From NCBI GenBank assembly GCA_017307375.1, contig JAFKFH010000010.1, forward strand, positions 124,001 to 188,000: a stretch of DNA of 64,000 nt, read 5' to 3'. Source of the stretch: Alphaproteobacteria bacterium (GTDB lineage Bacteria; Pseudomonadota; Alphaproteobacteria; Ferrovibrionales; Ferrovibrionaceae). The notes beneath the pieces are model-generated. The model was not told the origin of the DNA, did no database searches, and saw only the letters and a program-made list of their open reading frames with translations. The first letter of the stretch is position 1, and each line of letters starts with the position of its first letter. Below, piece after piece: positions 4,501 through 14,153 of the stretch. A program made the translations under genes and the position numbers.

Positions 4501-5625
4501 GTGCCGCTGCCCAAGCCCCAACCCGGTATTCTCGACATCGTCCCCTACAAGGGCGGCGAAGCCAAGGTCGAGGGGGTGACCAAGGTCGCCAAGCTGTCGT
4601 CAAACGAATCGCCCCTCGGGCCGTCGGCCAAGGCGGTCGCGGCCTACATGGCGCTGGCCGCCGAACTGCACCGCTATCCCGATGGCGGCCATGGCGATCT
4701 GCGCGAGGCGCTGGCGGCGAAATGGGGCATCCCGGCCGATCGCATCGTCGTCGGCAACGGTTCGGACGAACTGATCGGCCTGCTGGTGCGGGCCTTCGCC
4801 GGGCCGGGCGACGAGGTGCTGTTCAGCCGCCACGGCTTCCTGATGTATGCGATCTCGGCCAGGACCGCCGGGGCCGAGCCGGTGATGGCGCCCGAGATCG
4901 ACTACCGCACCGATATCGAGGCGCTGCTGGCCGCGGTCACCCCGCGCACCCGCATCGTCTTCGTCACCAATCCGAACAACCCGACCGGCAGCTACGTGAC
5001 CGCGGCCGAATTGCGCAGCCTGCGCGACCGCCTGCCCGCCGACGTGCTGATGGTGGTCGATGCCGCCTATGCCGAATATGTCAGCCGCAACGACTATTCG
5101 GCGGGCATGGAACTGGTCGAGACGACCGACAACACCGTGGTGCTGCGCACCTTCTCGAAGATCTACGGCCTGGGCGGGATGCGGGTCGGCTGGGCCTACG
5201 GCCCGGAAGCCTTCATCGATGTGATGAACCGGATGCGCGGCCCGTTCAACGTCAACGCGCCGGCGCAGGCGGCGGCGGTCGCGGCACTGGCCGATGCCGA
5301 TTGGGTCGAGGCGGCGCGCCGGCATAACGACAAGTGGCTTGCCCGCATGGCCGACGGCATCGCCCGCCTGGGCCTGTCGACCCTGCCTTCGGTCGGCAAT
5401 TTCATGCTGATCCGCTTCACCGAGGGTGCCCACGATGCGGCTGCCGCCTTCCGCTTCCTGCAGCAGCGCGGCCTGATCCTGCGCCCGGTCGCCGGCTATG
5501 GCCTGCCGCAGTTCCTGCGGCTCAGCCTCGGGACCGACGAGGAGAACGAGGCGGTGCTGGCCGCCCTGGCCGACTTCCTGGCGGCACACCCGGACACGCT
5601 GGTCGATCCCGCGGCACTGGCATGA
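4501..5625 (+). CDS. hisC: Histidinol-phosphate/aromatic aminotransferase HisC
   Basis: 374-residue PLP-dependent fold-type I aminotransferase. The substrate-binding SSNESPLGPS region lies near residue 36, NPNNPTGS near 158, and the PLP-binding lysine is expected in the TFSKIYGLGGMRVGW block (residues ~217-232), the standard HisC signature. It starts with GTG at 4501. The position between a chorismate mutase-like gene and tyrA (tyrA starts inside the hisC stop, ATGA) suggests that it transaminates prephenate or aromatic keto acids as well as, or instead of, imidazole acetol phosphate. Confidence 0.93.
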   Translation: MPLPKPQPGILDIVPYKGGEAKVEGVTKVAKLSSNESPLGPSAKAVAAYMALAAELHRYPDGGHGDLREALAAKWGIPADRIVVGNGSDELIGLLVRAFAGPGDEVLFSRHGFLMYAISARTAGAEPVMAPEIDYRTDIEALLAAVTPRTRIVFVTNPNNPTGSYVTAAELRSLRDRLPADVLMVVDAAYAEYVSRNDYSAGMELVETTDNTVVLRTFSKIYGLGGMRVGWAYGPEAFIDVMNRMRGPFNVNAPAQAAAVAALADADWVEAARRHNDKWLARMADGIARLGLSTLPSVGNFMLIRFTEGAHDAAAAFRFLQQRGLILRPVAGYGLPQFLRLSLGTDEENEAVLAALADFLAAHPDTLVDPAALA

Positions 5626-6545
5626 CCGCGCCGATGTTCGATACCGTCGCCCTGGTCGGCATCGGGCTGATCGGCGGCTCGATCGCCCGCGGGATTCGCG
5701 AGCATGGCCTGGCCCGCCGCATCGTCTGCGTCGACGCCAGCGCCCAGCATTGCGCCGAGGCACTCGAACTGGGCCTGGTCGACGAGGCCATGACCGAGCC
5801 CGGCACCGTCCTCACTGAAGCCGGCCTCGTCATCCTGGCGATCCCGCTCGGCGCGATGCGGGCCGCCGGCGAGGCACTGGCCCCGTTCCTGAAGCCCGGC
5901 ACGATCGTCTCCGATACCGGTTCGTCCAAGCAGTCGGTCATCGACCATCTCGGCCCGCTGTTGCCGGCGGGCGTGCATCTGGTACCGGCCCATCCGGTGG
6001 CAGGCACCGAGAACTCCGGCCCCAAGGCCGGCTTCGCCTCGCTGTTCCGCAATCGCTGGTGCATCATCACCCCGGCGCCGGGTTCGGATCCCGCGGCGAT
6101 CGAGCGGTTGTCGGCGTTCTGGCGGGTGCTCGGCTCCAAGGTCGAGATCATGGATGCCCATCGCCACGACCTGGTGCTGGCGATCACCAGCCATGTGCCG
6201 CATCTGATCGCCTACAACATCGTCGGCACCGCCGACGACCTGGAAACCGTCACCCACAACGACGTCATCCGCTTCTCGGCCGGCGGTTTCCGCGACTTCA
6301 CCCGGATCGCCGCCTCCGACCCGGTGATGTGGCGCGACGTGTTCCTGAACAACCGCACCGCGGTGCTCGAGATGCTCGGGCGGTTCACCGAGGACCTGTT
6401 CGCGCTGCAACGCGCGATCCGCTGGTCCGACGGCCAGGCCCTGCAGGACCTGTTCACCCGCACGCGGGCGATCCGGCGCGAGATCATCGATGCCGGCCAG
6501 GAAACCGCCGCGCCCGATTTCGGCCGGACACCGACAAAAAACTGA
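5622..6545 (+). CDS. tyrA: Prephenate/arogenate dehydrogenase TyrA
   Basis: 307 residues. An NAD(P)-binding Rossmann motif GIGLIGGS near residue 11 is followed by the all-helical TyrA dimerisation domain. The catalytic-region segments HPVAGTENSGP (about residue 125) and the conserved His in the ITSHVPHLIAY segment (about 192) are visible. It oxidatively decarboxylates prephenate or arogenate in tyrosine synthesis. The ATG overlaps the hisC stop by 4 bases, showing coupling. No ACT domain is fused, so feedback control by tyrosine through ACT is not expected. Cyclohexadienyl specificity cannot be decided here. Confidence 0.94.
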   Translation: MTAPMFDTVALVGIGLIGGSIARGIREHGLARRIVCVDASAQHCAEALELGLVDEAMTEPGTVLTEAGLVILAIPLGAMRAAGEALAPFLKPGTIVSDTGSSKQSVIDHLGPLLPAGVHLVPAHPVAGTENSGPKAGFASLFRNRWCIITPAPGSDPAAIERLSAFWRVLGSKVEIMDAHRHDLVLAITSHVPHLIAYNIVGTADDLETVTHNDVIRFSAGGFRDFTRIAASDPVMWRDVFLNNRTAVLEMLGRFTEDLFALQRAIRWSDGQALQDLFTRTRAIRREIIDAGQETAAPDFGRTPTKN

Positions 6546-6605: not shown

Positions 6606-6806
6606 ATGCTCTACCGCAAGAATGTCGGCGCCGTCGAACGCGGCCTGCGGATCGCCGCGGCGGCCGGATTGATCGCCGCCGGCGCGATCGCCCTGCCGGG
6701 CACCCCGCTCGGCTATGGGCTGATCGCGGCCGGCGCGGCGGCCGCCCTCACCGGCTTCGTCGGCTTCTGCCCGGCTTGCGCCATGATCGGCCGCAAACCG
6801 CTCTAG
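6606..6806 (+). CDS. DUF2892-type small inner-membrane protein
   Basis: 66 residues with the N-terminal pattern MLYRKNVGAVERGLRI followed by two hydrophobic helices (roughly 16-30 and 36-55) and a short cysteine-containing FCPACAMIG segment. This matches the YgaP-like membrane domain family DUF2892, which occurs alone or fused to rhodanese domains; the pair of cysteines before the C-terminus is common in the family. A near-perfect ribosome binding site AAGGAGG precedes the start but is paired in a predicted hairpin. The function is unknown; a link to sulfur transfer is only by family association. Confidence 0.8.
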   Translation: MLYRKNVGAVERGLRIAAAAGLIAAGAIALPGTPLGYGLIAAGAAAALTGFVGFCPACAMIGRKPL

Positions 6807-6860: not shown

Positions 6861-7664
6861 ATGCACGACATGGGCGGCCCCCAGACAGCCAGCCTGGCGG
6901 CCCCGGACACCGGCCCGGGCCGCAAATCGATCGATATCGCCAGATACGAGGCGGTATCGCGCCAACTCGACTCTCTGCCGGACGACAATGCCCTGCGCAC
7001 CGCGATCGCGGACTTGGTTGCCGATGCCGGATTCATGTTCTTCTCTTATGGCACGAGCCCCCGCTGCGGCGAGCGGCTGAGCCGGGCCAGCCAGCTCGTG
7101 TTCATTACGAATTATCCGGCAGAATGGCACGCCCGCTATGTCCGGCAGCGCTACCAGTCGCTCGACACCGTCGTCGCCGTGGGCGAACGCGCGCGGCGCC
7201 CCTTCCAGTGGGGCGGCCAGGGTTATCTCGCCACGCTCGACAAACCCCGGCAGACGTTCTTCGGCGAGGCGGGATCGTTCGGGATCGTCCACGGCTACAC
7301 GATTCCGGTGCACGGGCCGGACGGCGATTGCGGCATCTTCTCGATCTCCCATCCGCGCCAGGCCGAGTTCGGCGACGCCTTGGCCGCCGCGGTGCTGCCG
7401 CTGCATGCGCTGGCCCAGGCGGTTCACGCCCGCTGCATCGAACAGCTGGCCGTGCGCGGCAGCGCCGAGCCCCAGGCCCTGACCCAGCGCGAGCGCGAAT
7501 GCCTGGCCTGGACCGCCGACGGCAAGACATCGGGCGAGATCGCCTGCATCCTGGGCCGCTCGGTCGCCACGGTGAACTTCCACCTGCAGTCGGCGATCCG
7601 CAAGATGGACGCGTCCAACAAGCATCACGCCGCACTGAAGGCGCATCGGCTGCGCCTGATCTGA
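6861..7664 (+). CDS. LuxR-type quorum-sensing-like regulator without synthase (LuxR solo)
   Basis: 267 residues. Residues ~30-190 form an autoinducer-binding domain and residues ~207-255 a LuxR/GerE helix-turn-helix (LTQRERECLAW, ASNKHHAA). Ligand-pocket residues used by AHL receptors are kept: W89, Y93, D102 and W117; the proline after the Asp is T103. These differ from the plant-compound-binding OryR type, which changes the Trp/Tyr pair. No luxI-type synthase is in the window, so this is a solo. It stands 81 bases upstream of, and in line with, a Liv-type transporter operon whose promoter region has a lux-box-like palindrome, so it most likely controls that operon. The ligand is unknown. 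Confidence 0.88.
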   Translation: MHDMGGPQTASLAAPDTGPGRKSIDIARYEAVSRQLDSLPDDNALRTAIADLVADAGFMFFSYGTSPRCGERLSRASQLVFITNYPAEWHARYVRQRYQSLDTVVAVGERARRPFQWGGQGYLATLDKPRQTFFGEAGSFGIVHGYTIPVHGPDGDCGIFSISHPRQAEFGDALAAAVLPLHALAQAVHARCIEQLAVRGSAEPQALTQRERECLAWTADGKTSGEIACILGRSVATVNFHLQSAIRKMDASNKHHAALKAHRLRLI

Positions 7665-7670
7665 AGCCGA

Positions 7671-7688
7671 CCTAGCAACCCTGCTAGG
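7671..7688 (+). promoter_or_regulatory. Lux-box-like operator before the transporter operon
   Basis: A perfect 7-bp inverted repeat CCTAGCA/TGCTAGG with a 4-base centre. It contains the CT-N12-AG spacing of known lux boxes. A possible -10 element TACGAT lies at 7712-7717, so the palindrome centre (7679.5) would fall about 43 bases before the start of transcription, the usual place for LuxR activators. It sits in the 81-base gap between the LuxR gene and the operon. Confidence 0.6.
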
Positions 7689-7718
7689 GGATCGGCGCGG
7701 CCGGTTGGGCCTACGATC

Positions 7719-7738
7719 CCTCCTGTTCAGGCAGGAGG
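7719..7738 (+). promoter_or_regulatory. Hairpin covering the ribosome binding site of the binding-protein gene
   Basis: CCTCCTG (7719-7725) is a perfect complement of CAGGAGG (7732-7738), with a 6-base loop. The right arm is the Shine-Dalgarno sequence, 7 bases before the ATG at 7746. Whether the left arm is in the mRNA depends on the exact transcription start, which I place near 7723, so the hairpin may be partial. Confidence 0.4.
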
Positions 7739-7745
7739 GGCAATC

Positions 7746-8990
7746 ATGTTCGGAATTTCACGGGGCAGGCTGTTGGGCGCGGCGGCGGCGGCCGCGCTGC
7801 TGTGGGCAGTACCGGGCGCGGCCGATGCCGCGACCGTCAAGCTCGGCGTGCTGGCACCGCTGACCGGCCCGGCCAGCGGCGACGGCGAGGACTATGTCCA
7901 CGGCGTGACGATGGCCGTCGAGGAAGCCAACAAGAAGGGCGGCATCGCCGGCTCGACGTTCGAGGTCATGGCCGTCGACGTCAAGGACGGTTCGGCCAAT
8001 GCGGTGACCTCGGCGGTCGAGCGCCTGCTGGCCGACAAGGACGTCCAGGTCATCCTGACCGGCTATGCCAGCATCTCGAATTTCGAGATCAACCTGATGG
8101 CCGACGCCGACATGCCGTTCCTGATCGCCGGCCCGTCGGGCCAGACCCGCGCGATCATCGCGCCGGATCCGGCGAAATTCTGGTGCTGCTGGTCCTATAC
8201 GCCGTCGTTCGACGGTTACGAGACCCAGGTGACGCCGTTCGTCGAGGGCCTGGCCAAGGCGGGCAAGATCAAGCTGGCCAGCAAGAAGGTCGCCATCGTC
8301 TCGTCCGACAACGCCTATTCGAAGACGATCTCGGAAGGCATGAAGAAGGTATTCGCCAAGGCCGGGTGGACCATCACGGTCGACGAGCTGGTGCCGTTCG
8401 GCGAGGTCACCGACTGGCGCGTCATTCTCGCCAAGGTCCGGCAGGACCCGCCCGACGTCGTCATCAACACCGATTACCTGCCCGGAAATTCGGCCACGTT
8501 CATGAACCAGTTCATGGAGGCGCCGACCAACAGCCTGGTGTTCCTGCAATACGCGCCCTCGGTGCCGGAATTCGTCAAGCTGGCCGGCAACAACGCCACC
8601 GGCGTGCTCTACAACCTGCTGGGCGGCCCGATCCGCAGCCCGAAATACCCGCTGGCCGGCGAACGCCTCGCCCAATACAAGGCGCGCTGGGGCGCCGAGG
8701 GCGGCCCCTATGGCGTCATGCTCTACGAAATGGCCTGGCACTATCTGAAGGCGCTCGAACAGGTCAAGGACCCGGCCAAGCACGAGGCGATCGGCAAGGC
8801 GATGGGGGCGATGACCCTCGATTCCGCGCAGGGCAAGATGGCCTTCGACCAGAAGACGCATCTGGCCGTGCAGGACGACGCCCATGTCCCGTTGCAATTC
8901 TACCAGCTGTGGCAAGGCGATCGCGTGCTGCTCTCGCCTCCGCAATATGCGACGGGCGAGTTCAAGCTGCCGCCGTGGATGAAGAACTGA
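7746..8990 (+). CDS. Liv-type ABC transporter substrate-binding protein (cluster 1)
   Basis: 414-residue periplasmic binding protein of the Leu/Ile/Val-amide type (peripla_BP_6). A signal peptide with a long alanine-rich core ends near residue 28 (AADA), and the mature start TVKLGVLAPLTGPASGDGED is typical of the family. The ATG at 7746 has a strong GGAGGGG site. It heads an operon with two ATPases, two permeases and an alpha/beta hydrolase. The gap of 137 bases after it carries palindromic repeats that may let it be made in excess over the other subunits. The ligand is unknown; amino acids, amides and short acids are all possible for this family. Confidence 0.9.
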   Translation: MFGISRGRLLGAAAAAALLWAVPGAADAATVKLGVLAPLTGPASGDGEDYVHGVTMAVEEANKKGGIAGSTFEVMAVDVKDGSANAVTSAVERLLADKDVQVILTGYASISNFEINLMADADMPFLIAGPSGQTRAIIAPDPAKFWCCWSYTPSFDGYETQVTPFVEGLAKAGKIKLASKKVAIVSSDNAYSKTISEGMKKVFAKAGWTITVDELVPFGEVTDWRVILAKVRQDPPDVVINTDYLPGNSATFMNQFMEAPTNSLVFLQYAPSVPEFVKLAGNNATGVLYNLLGGPIRSPKYPLAGERLAQYKARWGAEGGPYGVMLYEMAWHYLKALEQVKDPAKHEAIGKAMGAMTLDSAQGKMAFDQKTHLAVQDDAHVPLQFYQLWQGDRVLLSPPQYATGEFKLPPWMKN

Positions 8991-9018
8991 CGGGTGCCGC
9001 AGGTTTCCATGCCCATCA

Positions 9019-9106
9019 CCGTCATTCCCGCGACAGCGGGAAGCCAGGGTAGGCACGTCGTCGCTTGCGAGGCCCCGAACCCTGGGCCCCGGGTCGAGCC
9101 CGGGGC
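9019..9106. repeat. Intergenic palindromic repeat element
   Basis: Two palindromes lie between the binding-protein gene and the ATPase gene: TTCCCGC-gaca-GCGGGAA (9025-9042) and CCCCGGG-tcgag-CCCGGGG (9087-9105). The first is embedded in GTCATTCCCGCGACAGCGGG, a form of an extragenic repeat that I know to be widespread in proteobacterial genomes. No second copy is seen in this window, so repeat status rests on that recall. It may stabilise the upstream mRNA end. Confidence 0.6.
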
Positions 9107-9127
9107 GGCGGAAGGCGGGCCGGCGTG

Positions 9128-9856
9128 ATGCTGTCGGTCCGCAACCTCGCCAAGTCCTATGGCGCGCTGGCCGTGCTGCGCGACGTCTCGTTCGACGTCG
9201 CCGCCGGAGAAATCCTCGGCATCGCCGGCCCGAACGGCAGCGGCAAGTCGACCCTGTTCAACGTCCTGACCGGCATCCCCGTGCGCGCCGACGACGGCGA
9301 GATCCGCTTCGACGGGCGCGAGATCCGCAACCTGCCGGCGCCGGCGATCGTCGCCGCCGGCCTGGTCCGCACCTTCCAGCGCGAAACCGCATTCGAGACG
9401 CTGACCTCGCTGGAGAACGTGCTGGCCGGACCGCTGCACGACCTGCGCATGCCCAGTGCCGACGCCCGCCGCCGCGCCGAGGCCGCGCTGGATTTCGTCG
9501 GCTTTCCGGCCGAGCGCATCGGCTGGATCGCGGCCGATCTTTCCGTTTTCGACCGCAAGCGGCTGATGATCGCCTCGGCCCTGGCGCTCGGCCCGAAGCT
9601 CTGCCTGTTCGACGAACCGGTCGCCGGGCTGGCCCCGCCCGAGATCCAGGCGATCATGGCCATCCTGCGCCGGCTGCGCGACCGCGGCACCGCGGCGATC
9701 CTGGTCGAACATGTCCTGCCTGCGCTGCTCGGCGTCTCCGACCGGCTGATGGTGCTGCACCAGGGCGTGGTCCTCGCGACCGGTGCGCCGCAGGACGTGA
9801 TCCGCGATCCCCGCGTCATCGATGCCTATCTCGGACCCGGCCGGCATGCTGCTTGA
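9128..9856 (+). CDS. livG: Liv-type ABC transporter ATPase, LivG-like (cluster 1), with altered signature motif
   Basis: 242 residues. Walker A GPNGSGKS spans residues 34-41, Walker B LCLFDEP lies near 160 and the switch His is in VEHVLP. The ABC signature is unusual: where LSYGQ or LSGGQ is expected the protein has LSVFD (138-142), lacking the glycine and glutamine. The codons read clearly, with no sign of a frameshift. In an asymmetric ABC dimer one weak site can be tolerated, and its LivF partner keeps a normal signature. ATG at 9128 is preferred over GTG at 9125. It overlaps livF by 11 bases. Confidence 0.88.
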   Translation: MLSVRNLAKSYGALAVLRDVSFDVAAGEILGIAGPNGSGKSTLFNVLTGIPVRADDGEIRFDGREIRNLPAPAIVAAGLVRTFQRETAFETLTSLENVLAGPLHDLRMPSADARRRAEAALDFVGFPAERIGWIAADLSVFDRKRLMIASALALGPKLCLFDEPVAGLAPPEIQAIMAILRRLRDRGTAAILVEHVLPALLGVSDRLMVLHQGVVLATGAPQDVIRDPRVIDAYLGPGRHAA

Positions 9857-10556
9857 GATCGCCGGACTGAAGGCCGGTTACGGCGGCGTCACCGTCCTGC
9901 ACGCCCTCGACCTGGAGATCGGCGCGGCCGAGACCGTCGGCCTGTTCGGCCCGAACGGCCATGGCAAGACCACCTTGCTGAAGACGGTCTCGGGGCTGGT
10001 CGCGGCGCGCGGCGGCACGATCCGGTTCGACGGCGTCGACATCACCAACCGGAAGCCCGGCCATATCGTCGAGCTGGGCCTGGTCCATGTGCCGCAGGGC
10101 AACCTGCTGTTCCCCGACTGCACGGTGGCAGAGGCCCTGTCCCTCGGCGCCTGGCCCCGGCGCGCGCGGCCGCGCGAGGCGGCCAACCGCGCCCGCATCG
10201 AGACCCTGTTTCCCCGGCTGGCCGAACGCCGCCGCCAGAAGATCCACGGCCTCTCGGGCGGCGAGCGCCAGATGCTGGCGATCGGCGTCGCGCTGATGGC
10301 CGAACCCAGGCTGCTGATCCTCGACGAACCGACGCTGGGCCTGGCCCCGAAGGTGCGCGGCGAGCTGGCCGCGGCGATCACCGAACTGGCCGGAGGCGGC
10401 CTGCCGATGCTGGTGGTCGAGCAGGACCTGCGTTTCCTCGGCGCCGTCTGCCCGCGGCTGGCCCTGATCGATCGCGGGCAGGTGGTGCTGGAGGCCCCGA
10501 GCGCCACGATCGACGAGGCAGCGATCATGTCGCGCTATTTCGGTGACGCGGCATGA
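9846..10556 (+). CDS. livF: Liv-type ABC transporter ATPase, LivF-like (cluster 1)
   Basis: 236 residues, the usual LivF length. Walker A GPNGHGKT, signature LSGGERQ and Walker B LLILDEPTLGLAP are all normal. It pairs with the preceding LivG-like ATPase to drive the importer. The ATG at 9846 lies inside the end of livG (11-base overlap), and the gene ends in an ATGA overlap with livH, so the four transporter genes are translationally chained. Confidence 0.92.
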   Translation: MLLEIAGLKAGYGGVTVLHALDLEIGAAETVGLFGPNGHGKTTLLKTVSGLVAARGGTIRFDGVDITNRKPGHIVELGLVHVPQGNLLFPDCTVAEALSLGAWPRRARPREAANRARIETLFPRLAERRRQKIHGLSGGERQMLAIGVALMAEPRLLILDEPTLGLAPKVRGELAAAITELAGGGLPMLVVEQDLRFLGAVCPRLALIDRGQVVLEAPSATIDEAAIMSRYFGDAA

Positions 10557-11428
10557 GCGGCGACGCGCTGGTCACCATCGCCGTCTCGGCCCTCGTGCTG
10601 GGCTCGCTCTACGCCGTCATGGCGCTGGGACTGGCCGTGGTGTGGTCCAGCCTCGGCATCTTCAATTTCGCCCATGGCCTGTTCATGACGCTCGGCGCCT
10701 ATGTCGCCTGGCAGGTGGCGGCCGGTGCCGGCTGGGGGCTGTGGCCCGGAATCGTCGCCGCGGTGGCCGCCGCGATGGCGGTCGGTGCAGTCGCCTGCGA
10801 GCTGCTGGTGCGGCCGTTCCTCGGCCGCAAGGATGTCGTGCTGGTCGCCGTCATCACCACGCTGGCCGGCGCCACCCTGATCGAGAACGGGGTGCTGCTG
10901 GCCTGGGGCGGCCGGCCCAAGCAGCTGCCGCCGCTGGCGACCGGCACCGTCAACCTGTTCGGCGCCGCGCTGTCGGCACACGAGGCCGTAATCGTCGCGA
11001 TCACCCCGCTGATCCTGCTGGCGGTCTGGCTGTTCCTCGGCCGCACCCGGCTCGGCGCCGCCCTGCGCGCCGTGGCGCAGAATCACGAGGCGGCGCTGCT
11101 GATGGGCCTGCCCGCGGCGCGGCTCTATGCGCTCGCCTTCGCACTGGCGGCGGGGCTTGCCGCCATCGCCGGCATCTTCCTCGGCGCCATCCGCTTCATG
11201 TCGCCGGCGATGGGCGGGGATCCGCTGCTGAAGGCCATGGTCGTCGTGATCTTCGGCGGGGTCGCGCGCTTCGCCGGGCCGGTCGTCGCGGCCTATCTGA
11301 TCGGGCTGATCGAGGCGGTCTCGACCTATGCGATCGGCCTTTACTGGACCCCGTCCGTCCTGTTCCTGTTCATGATCGGCACGCTGATGCTGCGCCCCCA
11401 GGGCCTGTTCGGCGGGGCGCGGCGATGA
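10553..11428 (+). CDS. livH: Liv-type ABC transporter permease, LivH-like (cluster 1)
   Basis: 291-residue integral membrane protein with about eight hydrophobic helices. The early segment YAVMALGLAVVWSSLGIFNFAHG is split here as the family hallmark: a GLAVV helix followed by NFAHG, seen in all LivH proteins. ATG at 10553 overlaps the livF stop (ATGA), and its own stop overlaps livM (ATGA). Confidence 0.92.
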   Translation: MSGDALVTIAVSALVLGSLYAVMALGLAVVWSSLGIFNFAHGLFMTLGAYVAWQVAAGAGWGLWPGIVAAVAAAMAVGAVACELLVRPFLGRKDVVLVAVITTLAGATLIENGVLLAWGGRPKQLPPLATGTVNLFGAALSAHEAVIVAITPLILLAVWLFLGRTRLGAALRAVAQNHEAALLMGLPAARLYALAFALAAGLAAIAGIFLGAIRFMSPAMGGDPLLKAMVVVIFGGVARFAGPVVAAYLIGLIEAVSTYAIGLYWTPSVLFLFMIGTLMLRPQGLFGGARR

Positions 11429-12357
11429 CCCGGCGCGGTGTCGTCATCGGGCTGGCCGCGCTGGGGCTGCTGGCTGCCCTGCCCTTCGTCTTTCCCGTGC
11501 CGTATCTGCGGCACATCTTCATCCTGGCCTTCATCTACGCGGTGGTCGCCTCGAACTGGGACCTGTCGCTCGGCTATGGCGGGATCTTCAACTTCGCCCA
11601 TGTCGCCTTCTTCTCGATCGGCGTCTACGGTTACGGCATCCTGACCAAGCTGGCCGGCTGGTCGCCGTGGGCGGCACTGGCGGCCGGGGGCGTGCTCGCC
11701 ACCCTCGCCGCCGTGCTCGTCGCCATCCCGGTCCTGCGCCTTTCCGGCATCTACATCATCCTGGTCACCTTCGCCTTCGCCCAGCTGGTGCTGCAACTCG
11801 TGGTCAGCCAGTCCGGGCTGACCGGGGGCATGATGGGCATGGTCGGCCTGCCGACTTTCCAGATCCCGGGCTACAACCTCGCCCGCGACGGCAAGCTCGG
11901 CTATTACTTCGGCGCGCTGGCATTGCTGGTCGTCTCGACCGCTTTCCTGCGCGCCTTCGTCGGCTCGCGGCTCGGGCTTGCCATCCGTGCCTTGCGCGAC
12001 GATCCCGACTATGCCGCGGCCCGCGGCATTTCGGTCGCCCGCCAGCGCATCCTGACGCTTGCCGCCTCGGCTTTCTTCACCGGCGTCGCCGGCGCCTATT
12101 ATGCCGCCTATCTGCGCATCGCCTCGCCCGACGCCTTCGGCGTCAGCCTGCTGTCGCTGCTGCTGTCGATCCTGCTGCTCGGCGGGCTGGCCTCGATCTA
12201 CGGGCCGGTCGTCGCGGCCCTGGTCCTGACCTTCCTGTCGGAAGCCTCGGTCGATCTGGGCCCCTGGCGACACATCGCCATCGCCGTCGTCATCATCGTC
12301 GTGGTGCGGATCTGGCCGGGGGGCCTGTGGTCCGCGCTGCGCCGGCTTTCATCCTGA
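11425..12357 (+). CDS. livM: Liv-type ABC transporter permease, LivM-like (cluster 1)
   Basis: 310-residue membrane protein with about nine helices. The family pattern LSLGYGGIFNFAHVAFF and the cytoplasmic coupling segment RALRDDPDYAAARGI are present, the latter corresponding to the loop that meets the ATPases. It is joined to livH by an ATGA overlap and followed 22 bases later by the hydrolase gene. Confidence 0.92.
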   Translation: MTRRGVVIGLAALGLLAALPFVFPVPYLRHIFILAFIYAVVASNWDLSLGYGGIFNFAHVAFFSIGVYGYGILTKLAGWSPWAALAAGGVLATLAAVLVAIPVLRLSGIYIILVTFAFAQLVLQLVVSQSGLTGGMMGMVGLPTFQIPGYNLARDGKLGYYFGALALLVVSTAFLRAFVGSRLGLAIRALRDDPDYAAARGISVARQRILTLAASAFFTGVAGAYYAAYLRIASPDAFGVSLLSLLLSILLLGGLASIYGPVVAALVLTFLSEASVDLGPWRHIAIAVVIIVVVRIWPGGLWSALRRLSS

Positions 12358-12379
12358 ATCAGCAGCGGAGGCAACGACC

Positions 12380-13195
12380 ATGCAAGAAAGCTTCATCGCG
12401 ACCGACCACGGCCGCATCTTCGCCCGCGACAGCGGCGGACCCGGACCGGCGGTCCTGTTCCTGCACGGCAATTCGTCCTGCAGCGCGATCTTCCAGCACC
12501 AGATGGGCTCGGACCTGGCCGGGCACTACCGCTTCATCGCCGTCGACCTGCCGGGGCACGGCCAGTCAGACAATGCGACCGATCCGGCCCGCACCTATAC
12601 GCTGACCGGCCTTGCCGACGTCGTCGTGCAGGTGCTGGCCGCACTGGGCATCGCCGATCCGGTCATCGTCGGCTCGTCGATGGGCGGCCACATCGCGATC
12701 GAGGTGGCCAGCCGCCTCGACGGGATACGCGGCCTCGCCATCAGCGGCACCCCGCCCTGCGGCCCCGGCCCCGACGTGATGAGCGTGTTCACGCCCCAAC
12801 CGCAGATGGCGTTCACCTTCAAGCCCGAATTCACCGCCGAGGAGGCGGAAACCTACGCCCGCTACACCACCTCGCTGAAACTGCCGCTGGACCCGGCCTT
12901 CGTCGCGGCGGCCAAGCGGGCGGACGGCCGGCTGCGCGCGCTGATCGGTCAATCCTTCGTCGCCGGCACCGAAGGCACGCCGGCGGTGCCCTTCGTCGCC
13001 GCATGGCCCAGGCCGATCGCCGTCATCCAGGGCGCCGACGAACCGTTCTTCGACAACGGCTATGTCGAAGGGCTGGCCTGGGGCAATCTGTGGGAGGGCC
13101 GGGTCCACATCATCCCCGATGCCGGGCATGTGCCGTTCTACGAAAAGCCGGACGCCTACAACCCGATGCTGGCCCGGTTCCTCGCCGCTACCTGA
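12380..13195 (+). CDS. Alpha/beta hydrolase at the end of the LuxR-linked transporter operon
   Basis: 271 residues of the alpha/beta-hydrolase fold. The oxyanion segment FLHGNSSCS, the nucleophile elbow GSSMGG (about residue 97) and the C-terminal catalytic His in AGHVPFYE (about 253) are all visible. A GGAGG site precedes the ATG. As the last gene of the operon it probably hydrolyses the compound brought in by the transporter, an ester, amide or lactone. A lactonase acting on the LuxR ligand is another possibility. The stop overlaps the convergent DUF2125 gene by 8 bases. Confidence 0.85.
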   Translation: MQESFIATDHGRIFARDSGGPGPAVLFLHGNSSCSAIFQHQMGSDLAGHYRFIAVDLPGHGQSDNATDPARTYTLTGLADVVVQVLAALGIADPVIVGSSMGGHIAIEVASRLDGIRGLAISGTPPCGPGPDVMSVFTPQPQMAFTFKPEFTAEEAETYARYTTSLKLPLDPAFVAAAKRADGRLRALIGQSFVAGTEGTPAVPFVAAWPRPIAVIQGADEPFFDNGYVEGLAWGNLWEGRVHIIPDAGHVPFYEKPDAYNPMLARFLAAT

Positions 13196-14153
13196 CCAGG
13201 GCCGGCGGCAGGACCACCGGCAGGGTGGCGACCGGCCGTTCGAACACGAACAGCCGGCCATCCTGGCCCGAGAACGGCACCTTGGTGCCGTCGGGCAGGG
13301 TCAGGGCGAAGATGCCAGCCGCCGTGGTCTGACCGGGCGTCAGATAGCCGCTCTTGCCCATTGCGGTAACCGCCGCCTTGGCACCCTGGATCGTCACGGT
13401 CCCCGCGCCGAGCGGGCGGCCCTGCGCATCCAGGGCCAGGGTCGCGTCGCCGTTGAGGCGCAGCGGCCCCCAGGCGATCTCGAGCCGCTTGACCTCGATG
13501 TCGCCACCGGCGTCGCGCCAGGCAGCGATCGCGGCGGGCAGCGGCCCCCCGGGCCAGCGGTCGTCGACCTGGCCCAGGATGCCGACACGGTCGACGCGGC
13601 GGCCCAGCGGCGCCGGCACCGTTTCCGGCAGGTCGAGCTGCTCGGCGATCAGCGATATTTCGGTGCCGGCCTCGATCCGCCGCAGATTGAGCTGGGCGCG
13701 GGCCGCCGGCAGGGCCTGACCGTCGGCGATCATCGTCGGCTGCTTGGCCTCGACGACGATGTCGCGCCAGCCGGCCGGGTCGGCCAGCAGGCTGCCGTGC
13801 AGCACCTTGGCATCGATCTCCAGCTTGTGTCCCAGCAGGTCGAAGGTCTGCCGGCCGTCCGCCTCGGCGATCGCATGGCGCGGCGCCCAGGGCTGGACCA
13901 CGATCTTGATCGGCCCGGCCCCGCGCCAGTCCAGGCCGTTGCCCGCCAGATGCGGGGTTGGCACGGTCATTTCGAGGCGGAAGGGAAAGCCGCCCATCGC
14001 GATCTCGCCGTGTTCGACGGTCCAGCCTGCGGCGCGCCGCTCGGCCACCCAGCGCTCGGCCCCGTCGCGGAACAGCCCCGCGGCATAGAACCAGTAGCCG
14101 ACATAGGCGGCGACGAGGGCGACGACGGCCGCACCGATCAGATAATAGCGCAT
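13188..14153 (-). CDS. DUF2125 domain protein, membrane-anchored
   Basis: 321 residues. An N-terminal hydrophobic helix (about residues 3-25) is followed by a long mostly beta-type exported region; the segments WTVEHGEIAMGGFPFRLEM and LDWRG belong to the DUF2125 pattern found mainly in alphaproteobacteria. No enzyme motif is seen. It follows a TRAP-type binding protein gene by 12 bases on the same strand. The family has no settled function. Confidence 0.8.
   Translation of the reverse strand: MRYYLIGAAVVALVAAYVGYWFYAAGLFRDGAERWVAERRAAGWTVEHGEIAMGGFPFRLEMTVPTPHLAGNGLDWRGAGPIKIVVQPWAPRHAIAEADGRQTFDLLGHKLEIDAKVLHGSLLADPAGWRDIVVEAKQPTMIADGQALPAARAQLNLRRIEAGTEISLIAEQLDLPETVPAPLGRRVDRVGILGQVDDRWPGGPLPAAIAAWRDAGGDIEVKRLEIAWGPLRLNGDATLALDAQGRPLGAGTVTIQGAKAAVTAMGKSGYLTPGQTTAAGIFALTLPDGTKVPFSGQDGRLFVFERPVATLPVVLPPALVR

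Follow-up and report, generated by a model that had tools for sequence, protein, structure and literature searches.

The stretch of DNA analysed here (the window: 64,000 nucleotides, positions 124,001 to 188,000 of contig JAFKFH010000010.1, assembly GCA_017307375.1) comes from an alphaproteobacterial genome of 7.54 Mb in 41 contigs that is listed as 100% complete. At positions 6861-13195 it holds, all on the + strand, a luxR gene followed by genes for a substrate-binding protein (SBP), two ATP-binding cassette (ABC) ATPases, two permeases and an alpha/beta hydrolase, as assigned by Pfam. A preliminary description of this DNA had proposed just such a co-directional operon downstream of luxR, and all of its parts are present. 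The cluster appears to unite a LuxR regulator whose pocket is of the type that binds N-acyl-homoserine lactones (AHLs), a Liv-type importer and a putative AHL lactonase akin to AidH. Its features are as follows (coordinates, strand, identity and basis).

6861..7664, +, LuxR solo of 267 aa; Autoind_bind (PF03472) and C-terminal GerE helix-turn-helix (PF00196)
7671..7688, no strand assigned, lux/tra-box-like dyad CCTAGCA-N4-TGCTAGG, proposed LuxR operator; site model and recurrence across loci
7712..7717, +, TACGAT, candidate -10 hexamer (start offset from the dyad centre, 32 bases); TANNNT recurrence
7746..8990, +, periplasmic SBP of the Liv/HAAT class with a signal-peptide-like N-terminus; Peripla_BP_6
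9065..9856, +, LivG-type ATPase, open reading frame (ORF) from TTG 9065, with an in-frame ATG at 9128 as a likely start; Pfam
9822..10556, +, LivF-type ATPase; Pfam
10553..11428, +, LivH-type permease; BPD_transp_2
11425..12357, +, LivM-type permease, with an orthologue-hydrolase fusion in 19 other loci; BPD_transp_2
12380..13195, +, AidH-type alpha/beta hydrolase of 271 aa, putative AHL lactonase; S100-H250-E221, N31 and Y159

The LuxR solo and its candidate operator

The regulator matches PF03472 (E 1.2e-30) and PF00196 (E 8e-15), both above cut-off, and QscR is its best solved relative (E 6e-30). Pocket residues W89, Y93, D102 and W117 are kept where the preliminary description had placed them, and G145 is kept too; T103, on which that description was silent, stands where proline is usual. 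A search of related genomes for the combination of LuxR, Liv transporter and hydrolase, which had been advised as a check, found the arrangement conserved at 17 other loci, whose regulators together with that of the window we call the 18 cluster LuxRs (loci carry L numbers below, genomes G numbers). We take the residues conserved among AHL-responsive LuxRs to be, in TraR numbering, W57, Y61, D70, P71, W85, G113, E178, L182 and G188. The window LuxR has eight of these nine, with T103 in the place of P71, and the 17 others have all nine; threonine at this position is unique to the window, and the remaining eight residues are kept in 18/18. LuxRs from outside the cluster mostly keep the pocket residues too, so their conservation is a consistency check and no proof of AHL binding. 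A tree was computed from the 18 cluster LuxRs (window included, L113 excluded) and 18 others from a class-wide search. A branch with support 97/92 separates the cluster LuxRs from the others; within their clade, the window LuxR has 31-43% identity to its fellow members and is the sister of the LuxR of L091 (99/95). LuxRs of the kind found in plant-associated bacteria (PAB), PipR included, carry W57M and Y61W according to PMC4338825; this signature occurs in 0/18 cluster LuxRs, all of which keep W and Y.

The preliminary description had found no luxI in the window, and this absence extends to the whole 7.54-Mb host genome, in which a PF00765 search returned no LuxI synthase; the control genomes of that search were negative as well. 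Since the identical search was positive in 6/10 other genomes, the negative result in the host carries weight. Three of those ten, holders of the same LuxR (loci L092, L095 and L097), gave no LuxI. Judged by its sequence, the window LuxR is a solo with an AHL-type pocket. The host genome holds two PF03472 proteins, the second of them at G000:C40:16534-16977 (L002), within an open frame of 701 aa.

How would such a regulator reach the operon? The gap between luxR and the SBP gene (7665-7745, 81 bases) contains the palindrome reported earlier, CCTAGCA-ACCC-TGCTAGG, at 7671-7688 (centre 7679.5), an 18-base dyad of 7-4-7 spacing that we take to resemble the TraR box. A half-site model was derived from 18 gaps (L113, with a gap of 38 bases, excluded), each LuxR subgroup being left out in turn; the called site is the model's best place in 16/18 gaps, 14/18 reach p<=0.05 in this leave-group-out setting, and one value per LuxR group, combined over seven groups, gives a Fisher value of 2.5e-7. 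The dyad's spacer measures 4 bases in the window, L091 and L094, 5 in L092, L093, L187, L188 and L189, and 6 in the rest. Across the 16 aligned LuxRs that were compared, the recognition helix reads TVNFHLQ in the window and L091 (4-base spacer), VNYH in L094 (4-base) and the 5-base loci, and VNHHA or VNQHA in the 6-base loci. The helix tends to vary with the spacer, as may be expected if LuxR binds the site; shared descent could explain this too.

A TANNNT hexamer, which was not used in calling sites, begins 30-32.5 bases from the dyad centre in 15/18 gaps (32.0 in the window, with TACGAT at 7712), and at offsets 14-59 outside 29-33 at most one locus has TANNNT at any one offset. With one locus per group, the offset is common to 5/7 groups, a count that 0/2000 shuffles reached; with less favourable group representatives it is common to 4/7, matched by 6/5000 shuffles. 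With the hexamer numbered -12 to -7, the centre of the dyad falls at about -44 in the window and at about -42 to -45 in the set, and lux boxes overlapping the -35 region are typically centred at about -42 to -45. A similar sequence is kept in L086, which has no adjoining LuxR, with the hexamer at 32.0, and in L191, there without the hexamer. Because the dyad recurs across loci, in variable form, and lies at a near-constant distance from a -10-like hexamer, we regard it as more than chance. Together, dyad and hexamer show the geometry expected of a LuxR activator site, which suggests the dyad as the proposed operator.

Several results pull the other way. The sites in the 18 gaps were initially picked by eye, and in L188 and L189 the called site is not the model's best place. 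LuxR-less gaps give some signal as well (4/20 at p<0.05, combined 0.005). The hexamer is missing from its expected place in L092, L093 and L094; of the preliminary description's expectation that the palindrome would be conserved along with the gene order, the recurring form and promoter position thus stand, with these three loci as exceptions for the hexamer. As a bare dyad, moreover, the palindrome is weak for its 81-base gap (p 0.037 by shuffling). The 19 LuxR-bearing gaps are no more palindromic than shuffles (Fisher 0.65), on which ground bare dyad strength was rejected as evidence, and neither are 20 LuxR-less gaps (Fisher 0.98); perfect 7/7 arms occur in 4/19 of the former vs 3/20 of the latter. 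The core CTAGCA-N4-TGCTAG has one exact site in the genome and one more at one mismatch (G000:C12:177596-177611, L230). A reversed control pattern has 187 sites, so words like the dyad core may simply be rare in this genome. The lack of significance of the bare dyad, together with four permease-enzyme fusions that lack a LuxR (see below), would suit a view in which LuxR is a bystander, a chance neighbour beside a meaningless palindrome. That 18 loci fall into one LuxR clade, and that site and promoter geometry recur among them, makes such a coincidence very hard to credit.

The AidH-type enzyme, the Liv-type importer and their fusion

The best solved relatives of the window hydrolase are the six AidH entries (E 2.1e-64; next protein 6e-12), with 113/259 aligned residues identical (43.6%). 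In PMC3532132, the AidH triad is given as S102, H248 and E219, and the lactone as held by the backbone of N33 and L103 and by the Y160 hydroxyl. AidH residues N33, S102, H106, V134, F138, M144, Y160, F192, E219, F221 and H248 are identical in the window hydrolase, whose own numbering puts the triad at S100-H250-E221, with N31 and Y159 matching AidH N33 and Y160. Around the active site and tunnel, the changes from AidH to the window are W101S, L103M, M77L, M188I and F189G. An AlphaFold model of the enzyme from a 24-sequence alignment (mean predicted local distance difference test, pLDDT, 94.4) matches the six AidH structures at Z 42.6-43.1 and a root-mean-square deviation of 1.0-1.1, with the best other protein at Z 30.6. 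The NCBIfam models compared do not place the hydrolase, all of them scoring below cut-off. Predicted fold and aligned residues support its reading as a putative AHL lactonase.

The importer has the complete Liv/HAAT gene set of SBP, two ATPases and two BPD_transp_2 permeases, with Pfam matches above cut-off. The SBP, whose best match is the structure 3h5l, remains below the NCBIfam LivJ/K cut-off (60 vs 477 bits) and each importer subunit below the cut-offs of the NCBIfam families compared (for the ATPases, the best 25 families); these sub-cut-off scores do not reveal the importer's substrate.

What ties enzyme and importer together is the architecture of related loci. An AidH-like enzyme ends the operon in all 17 testable LuxR-bearing loci, window included, the two outside this count being L095 (at a contig border) and L113 (broken). 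It is a separate gene in two of them, the window and L091, and in the other 15 (L092, L093, L094, L097, L098, L099, L103, L224-L228 and L248-L250) it forms the C-terminal half of the LivM frame, with no stop in between. The fused domain of L097 has AidH as its best solved match (1e-54; next 9e-14), and the divergently encoded enzyme of L193, the sole one of 14 tested in this way, is very close to AidH (1e-119). The fusion is an argument that the importer's cargo is also the enzyme's substrate. On which side of the membrane would it do so? The AlphaFold model of the L097 fusion (mean pLDDT 64.3; predicted template modelling score 0.53) is of low quality in its membrane part, and the side is therefore judged from the linkers and the positive-inside rule, by which Arg/Lys-rich segments face the cytoplasm. 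The fusion linkers are Arg/Lys-rich, which places the enzyme, on this reasoning, on the cytoplasmic side.

The preliminary description had proposed that a single amide or lactone might be what the operon imports, senses and hydrolyses. The proposal as such finds support, and kinship to AidH together with permease fusion in 15/17 testable loci would narrow "amide or lactone" towards an AHL-like lactone. In the chief alternative the same architecture would serve, as in PipR, a lactone, ester or amide other than an AHL, such as an ethanolamine-type signal, a compound from plants or algae, or a further metabolite, and the AidH-like enzyme would have a changed or broader specificity. Amino acids, amides or aromatics are the usual ligands of Liv-class binding proteins, which would fit, as would T103 in the window LuxR and the surroundings of L214, where an AidH-like gene and importer lie beside glutamine-synthetase-like, N-formylglutamate amidohydrolase, M20 and isochorismatase genes. 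PipR itself provides a precedent, its importer being needed for the response and its hydrolases lowering the signal (PMC4981722). On the other hand, the W57M and Y61W of PAB/PipR LuxRs (PMC4338825) are found in none of the 18 cluster LuxRs, and the Asn33 and Tyr160 by which AidH holds its lactone are kept in the window enzyme; we rate this alternative as unlikely, if worth serious attention. A second alternative would leave enzyme and LuxR acting on AHLs and have the importer carry ring-opened N-acyl-homoserine, or homoserine or acyl amino acids, in a nutrient system induced by quorum-signalling neighbours. It draws on the Liv class of the SBP and on the ability of AHLs to diffuse in (PMC4981722), and is set against the permease-enzyme fusion in 19 loci, which argues that the imported compound is the enzyme's target; it seems to us improbable.

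Distribution and origin of the cluster

The LuxR was not found in the 17 other genomes of the window's own family, and an order-level search covers the same 18 genomes. A class-wide LuxR sequence search matched 69/385 genomes, at 23-39% identity apart from the window's own gene; among 20 LuxR places fetched, some of them cut by contig ends, the operon was seen only at that of G018, whose family consists of one genome. The corresponding SBP search (385 genomes, E<=1e-40) returned 15 genomes including the host, with 46-58% identical SBPs in G051, G018 and G239. Among plasmids, LuxR matched 189 records, all below 60% identity, and the hydrolase 36 records, the 25 listed at 37-41% identity; the SBP has one close relative there, in Sinorhizobium sp. 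RAC02, where the fetched sequence around the operon contains neither a LuxR nor an AidH-like gene.

A scan of a genome collection with an alignment of five SBPs gave at least 80 loci, of which 23 (L091-L113) were examined and the other 57, 22-31% identical, left out. L091-L113 are orthologous operons (44-68% identity among the matches listed), and LuxR adjoins the SBP gene in 10/23, co-directionally in L091 and divergently in nine. In the family of Hoeflea poritis, 47/394 genomes have a close SBP. Of the 30 loci fetched from it, 12 have LuxR (four being the same places as L091, L095, L098 and L099, the last of them in the isolate Hoeflea poritis E7-10), and 14 lack LuxR and have an AidH-like gene divergent from the SBP gene. 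The remaining four show neither gene within about 1.5 kb, and longer sequence revealed LivM fusions in two of them, L190 and L191. In all, LuxR stands beside an orthologous SBP at no fewer than 18 distinct loci besides the window, one of them fragmentary (L113). The latter (L113 8342-12790) is a second, frame-broken LuxR-Liv-enzyme cluster in a Ruegeria metagenome-assembled genome that also holds L093. At L104 8115-8906 a third arrangement is seen, in which the AidH-like gene immediately precedes the orthologous Liv operon and runs in the same direction. The sister Liv operons in L214, L100, L111, L213, L218 and L091 3575-7559, of which some include an AidH-like gene, have adjacent gene clusters in common. 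By Pfam, the neighbours in L214 are an M20 peptidase, an N-formylglutamate amidohydrolase, a glutamine-synthetase-like protein, an isochorismatase and an RpiR regulator, and L213 and L218 share parts of this set by sequence clustering; the neighbouring cluster perhaps serves amine or amide catabolism. This clustering builds on a rough ORF caller that gets some genes wrong; the fusions were verified separately.

The cassette of the window is flanked by tyrA (5622-6545) and a DUF2125 gene (13188-14153). A DUF2125 gene is present in 16 family relatives, with no match in G005; tyrA lies directly beside it in 13 of them, and in the other three tyrA is outside the fetched stretch. The junction being closed in relatives and the LuxR absent from the family, a gain of the cassette by horizontal transfer is suggested; repeated loss in the relatives may be the alternative. 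Between tyrA and luxR lies a small ORF (6606-6806, 66 aa), Ala/Gly-rich and membrane-protein-like by eye.

Proposed mechanism and known systems

What might the cluster do? We consider it fairly probable, though far from settled, that an AHL-responsive LuxR solo switches on an importer and an AidH-type lactonase which take up and open AHLs. In this scheme an AHL would reach the cytoplasm and bind the LuxR solo; as the host genome yielded no luxI, neighbouring cells are the most likely source of the AHL. The LuxR dimer would then bind the dyad at 7671-7688, at about -44 of the SBP-gene promoter, and activate the operon. The Liv-type importer would capture this AHL, or one much like it, in the periplasm and bring it in. 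On the cytoplasmic face the AidH-type enzyme would open the lactone ring, and its tether to the permease in most relatives found would couple import to hydrolysis. The outcome would be quorum quenching, or scavenging of foreign signals, along with negative feedback on LuxR. We infer AHL both as the ligand and as the transported substrate, and we likewise infer activation as the direction of regulation, the transcription start and the cytoplasmic side of the enzyme.

A number of observations argue against this scheme. By the general view AHLs cross membranes by diffusion and need no transporter, so that an AHL importer is not required a priori, and LuxR solos with all conserved pocket residues can act without AHL, as CarR and MalR do (both from PMC4981722). 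The window LuxR has T103 in place of the usual proline. AidH Y160 is replaced by F in five fusions (L086, L092, L093, L222 and L223). The amide-related genes beside the AidH-linked L214, parts of which recur in L213 and L218, hint at amine or amide catabolism there. Finally, four LivM-enzyme fusions (L086, L096, L222 and L223) have no adjoining LuxR, and a search of the rest of those four genomes met nothing close to the cluster LuxRs, its top match having 139 bits, in G558, against the 296-374 bits that cluster members score with a similar model; the importer-enzyme unit can thus exist without LuxR.

If this is true, a LuxR-controlled fusion of permease and lactonase would amount to a machine made for quorum quenching, AidH-type lactonases would gain a physiological setting, and the PipR plant-signal system would have an AHL-pocket counterpart. 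We know of no dedicated AHL importer. That one exists here, an ABC system mostly with a lactonase-bearing permease, induced by a LuxR solo and destroying the signals of others in several alphaproteobacterial families, is a tentative proposition that we hold to be possible but short of probable.

How does the cluster relate to known systems? In PipR/OryR-type loci (pipR, aapA-F, pipA), import and hydrolysis of the inducer have been proposed to form a feedback loop (PMC4981722), and the window shares with them a LuxR solo adjoining an ABC importer and hydrolase, as well as an inverted-repeat operator (same source), which in the window is a candidate one. It departs from them in three respects: its LuxR keeps the W and Y of the AHL pocket where theirs have W57M and Y61W, its importer is of the Liv/HAAT and not the peptide type, and its enzyme is AidH-like and usually permease-fused in relatives, whereas theirs is a proline iminopeptidase. 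The contrast of transporter class and pocket drawn in the preliminary description is thus borne out by the Liv-type Pfam set and the kept W and Y. The literature searched, which included few subscription papers, describes neither a LuxR solo accompanied by a Liv importer and AidH-type enzyme nor a LivM-lactonase fusion. The trio of LuxR solo, importer and hydrolase is already known; an AHL-pocket LuxR with a Liv importer and a mostly permease-fused AidH-type enzyme would be new.

Each component has its own known counterpart. Like QscR, LasR and TraR, the window LuxR combines autoinducer-binding and GerE domains; unlike them, it is a solo, with no synthase detected in the genome. With AidH, the metal-independent AHL lactonase of Ochrobactrum (4g5x, 4g8b, 4g9e), the putative lactonase shares the predicted fold, the triad, Tyr160 and most tunnel residues; unlike AidH, it is encoded in a LuxR-led transporter operon and has the five changes named above around the active site and tunnel. 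The importer, lastly, has the SBP, LivG, LivF, LivH and LivM set of the Liv importers (branched-chain amino acid, HAAT), and differs from these in that the LivM orthologues of the cluster carry a C-terminal AidH-like domain.

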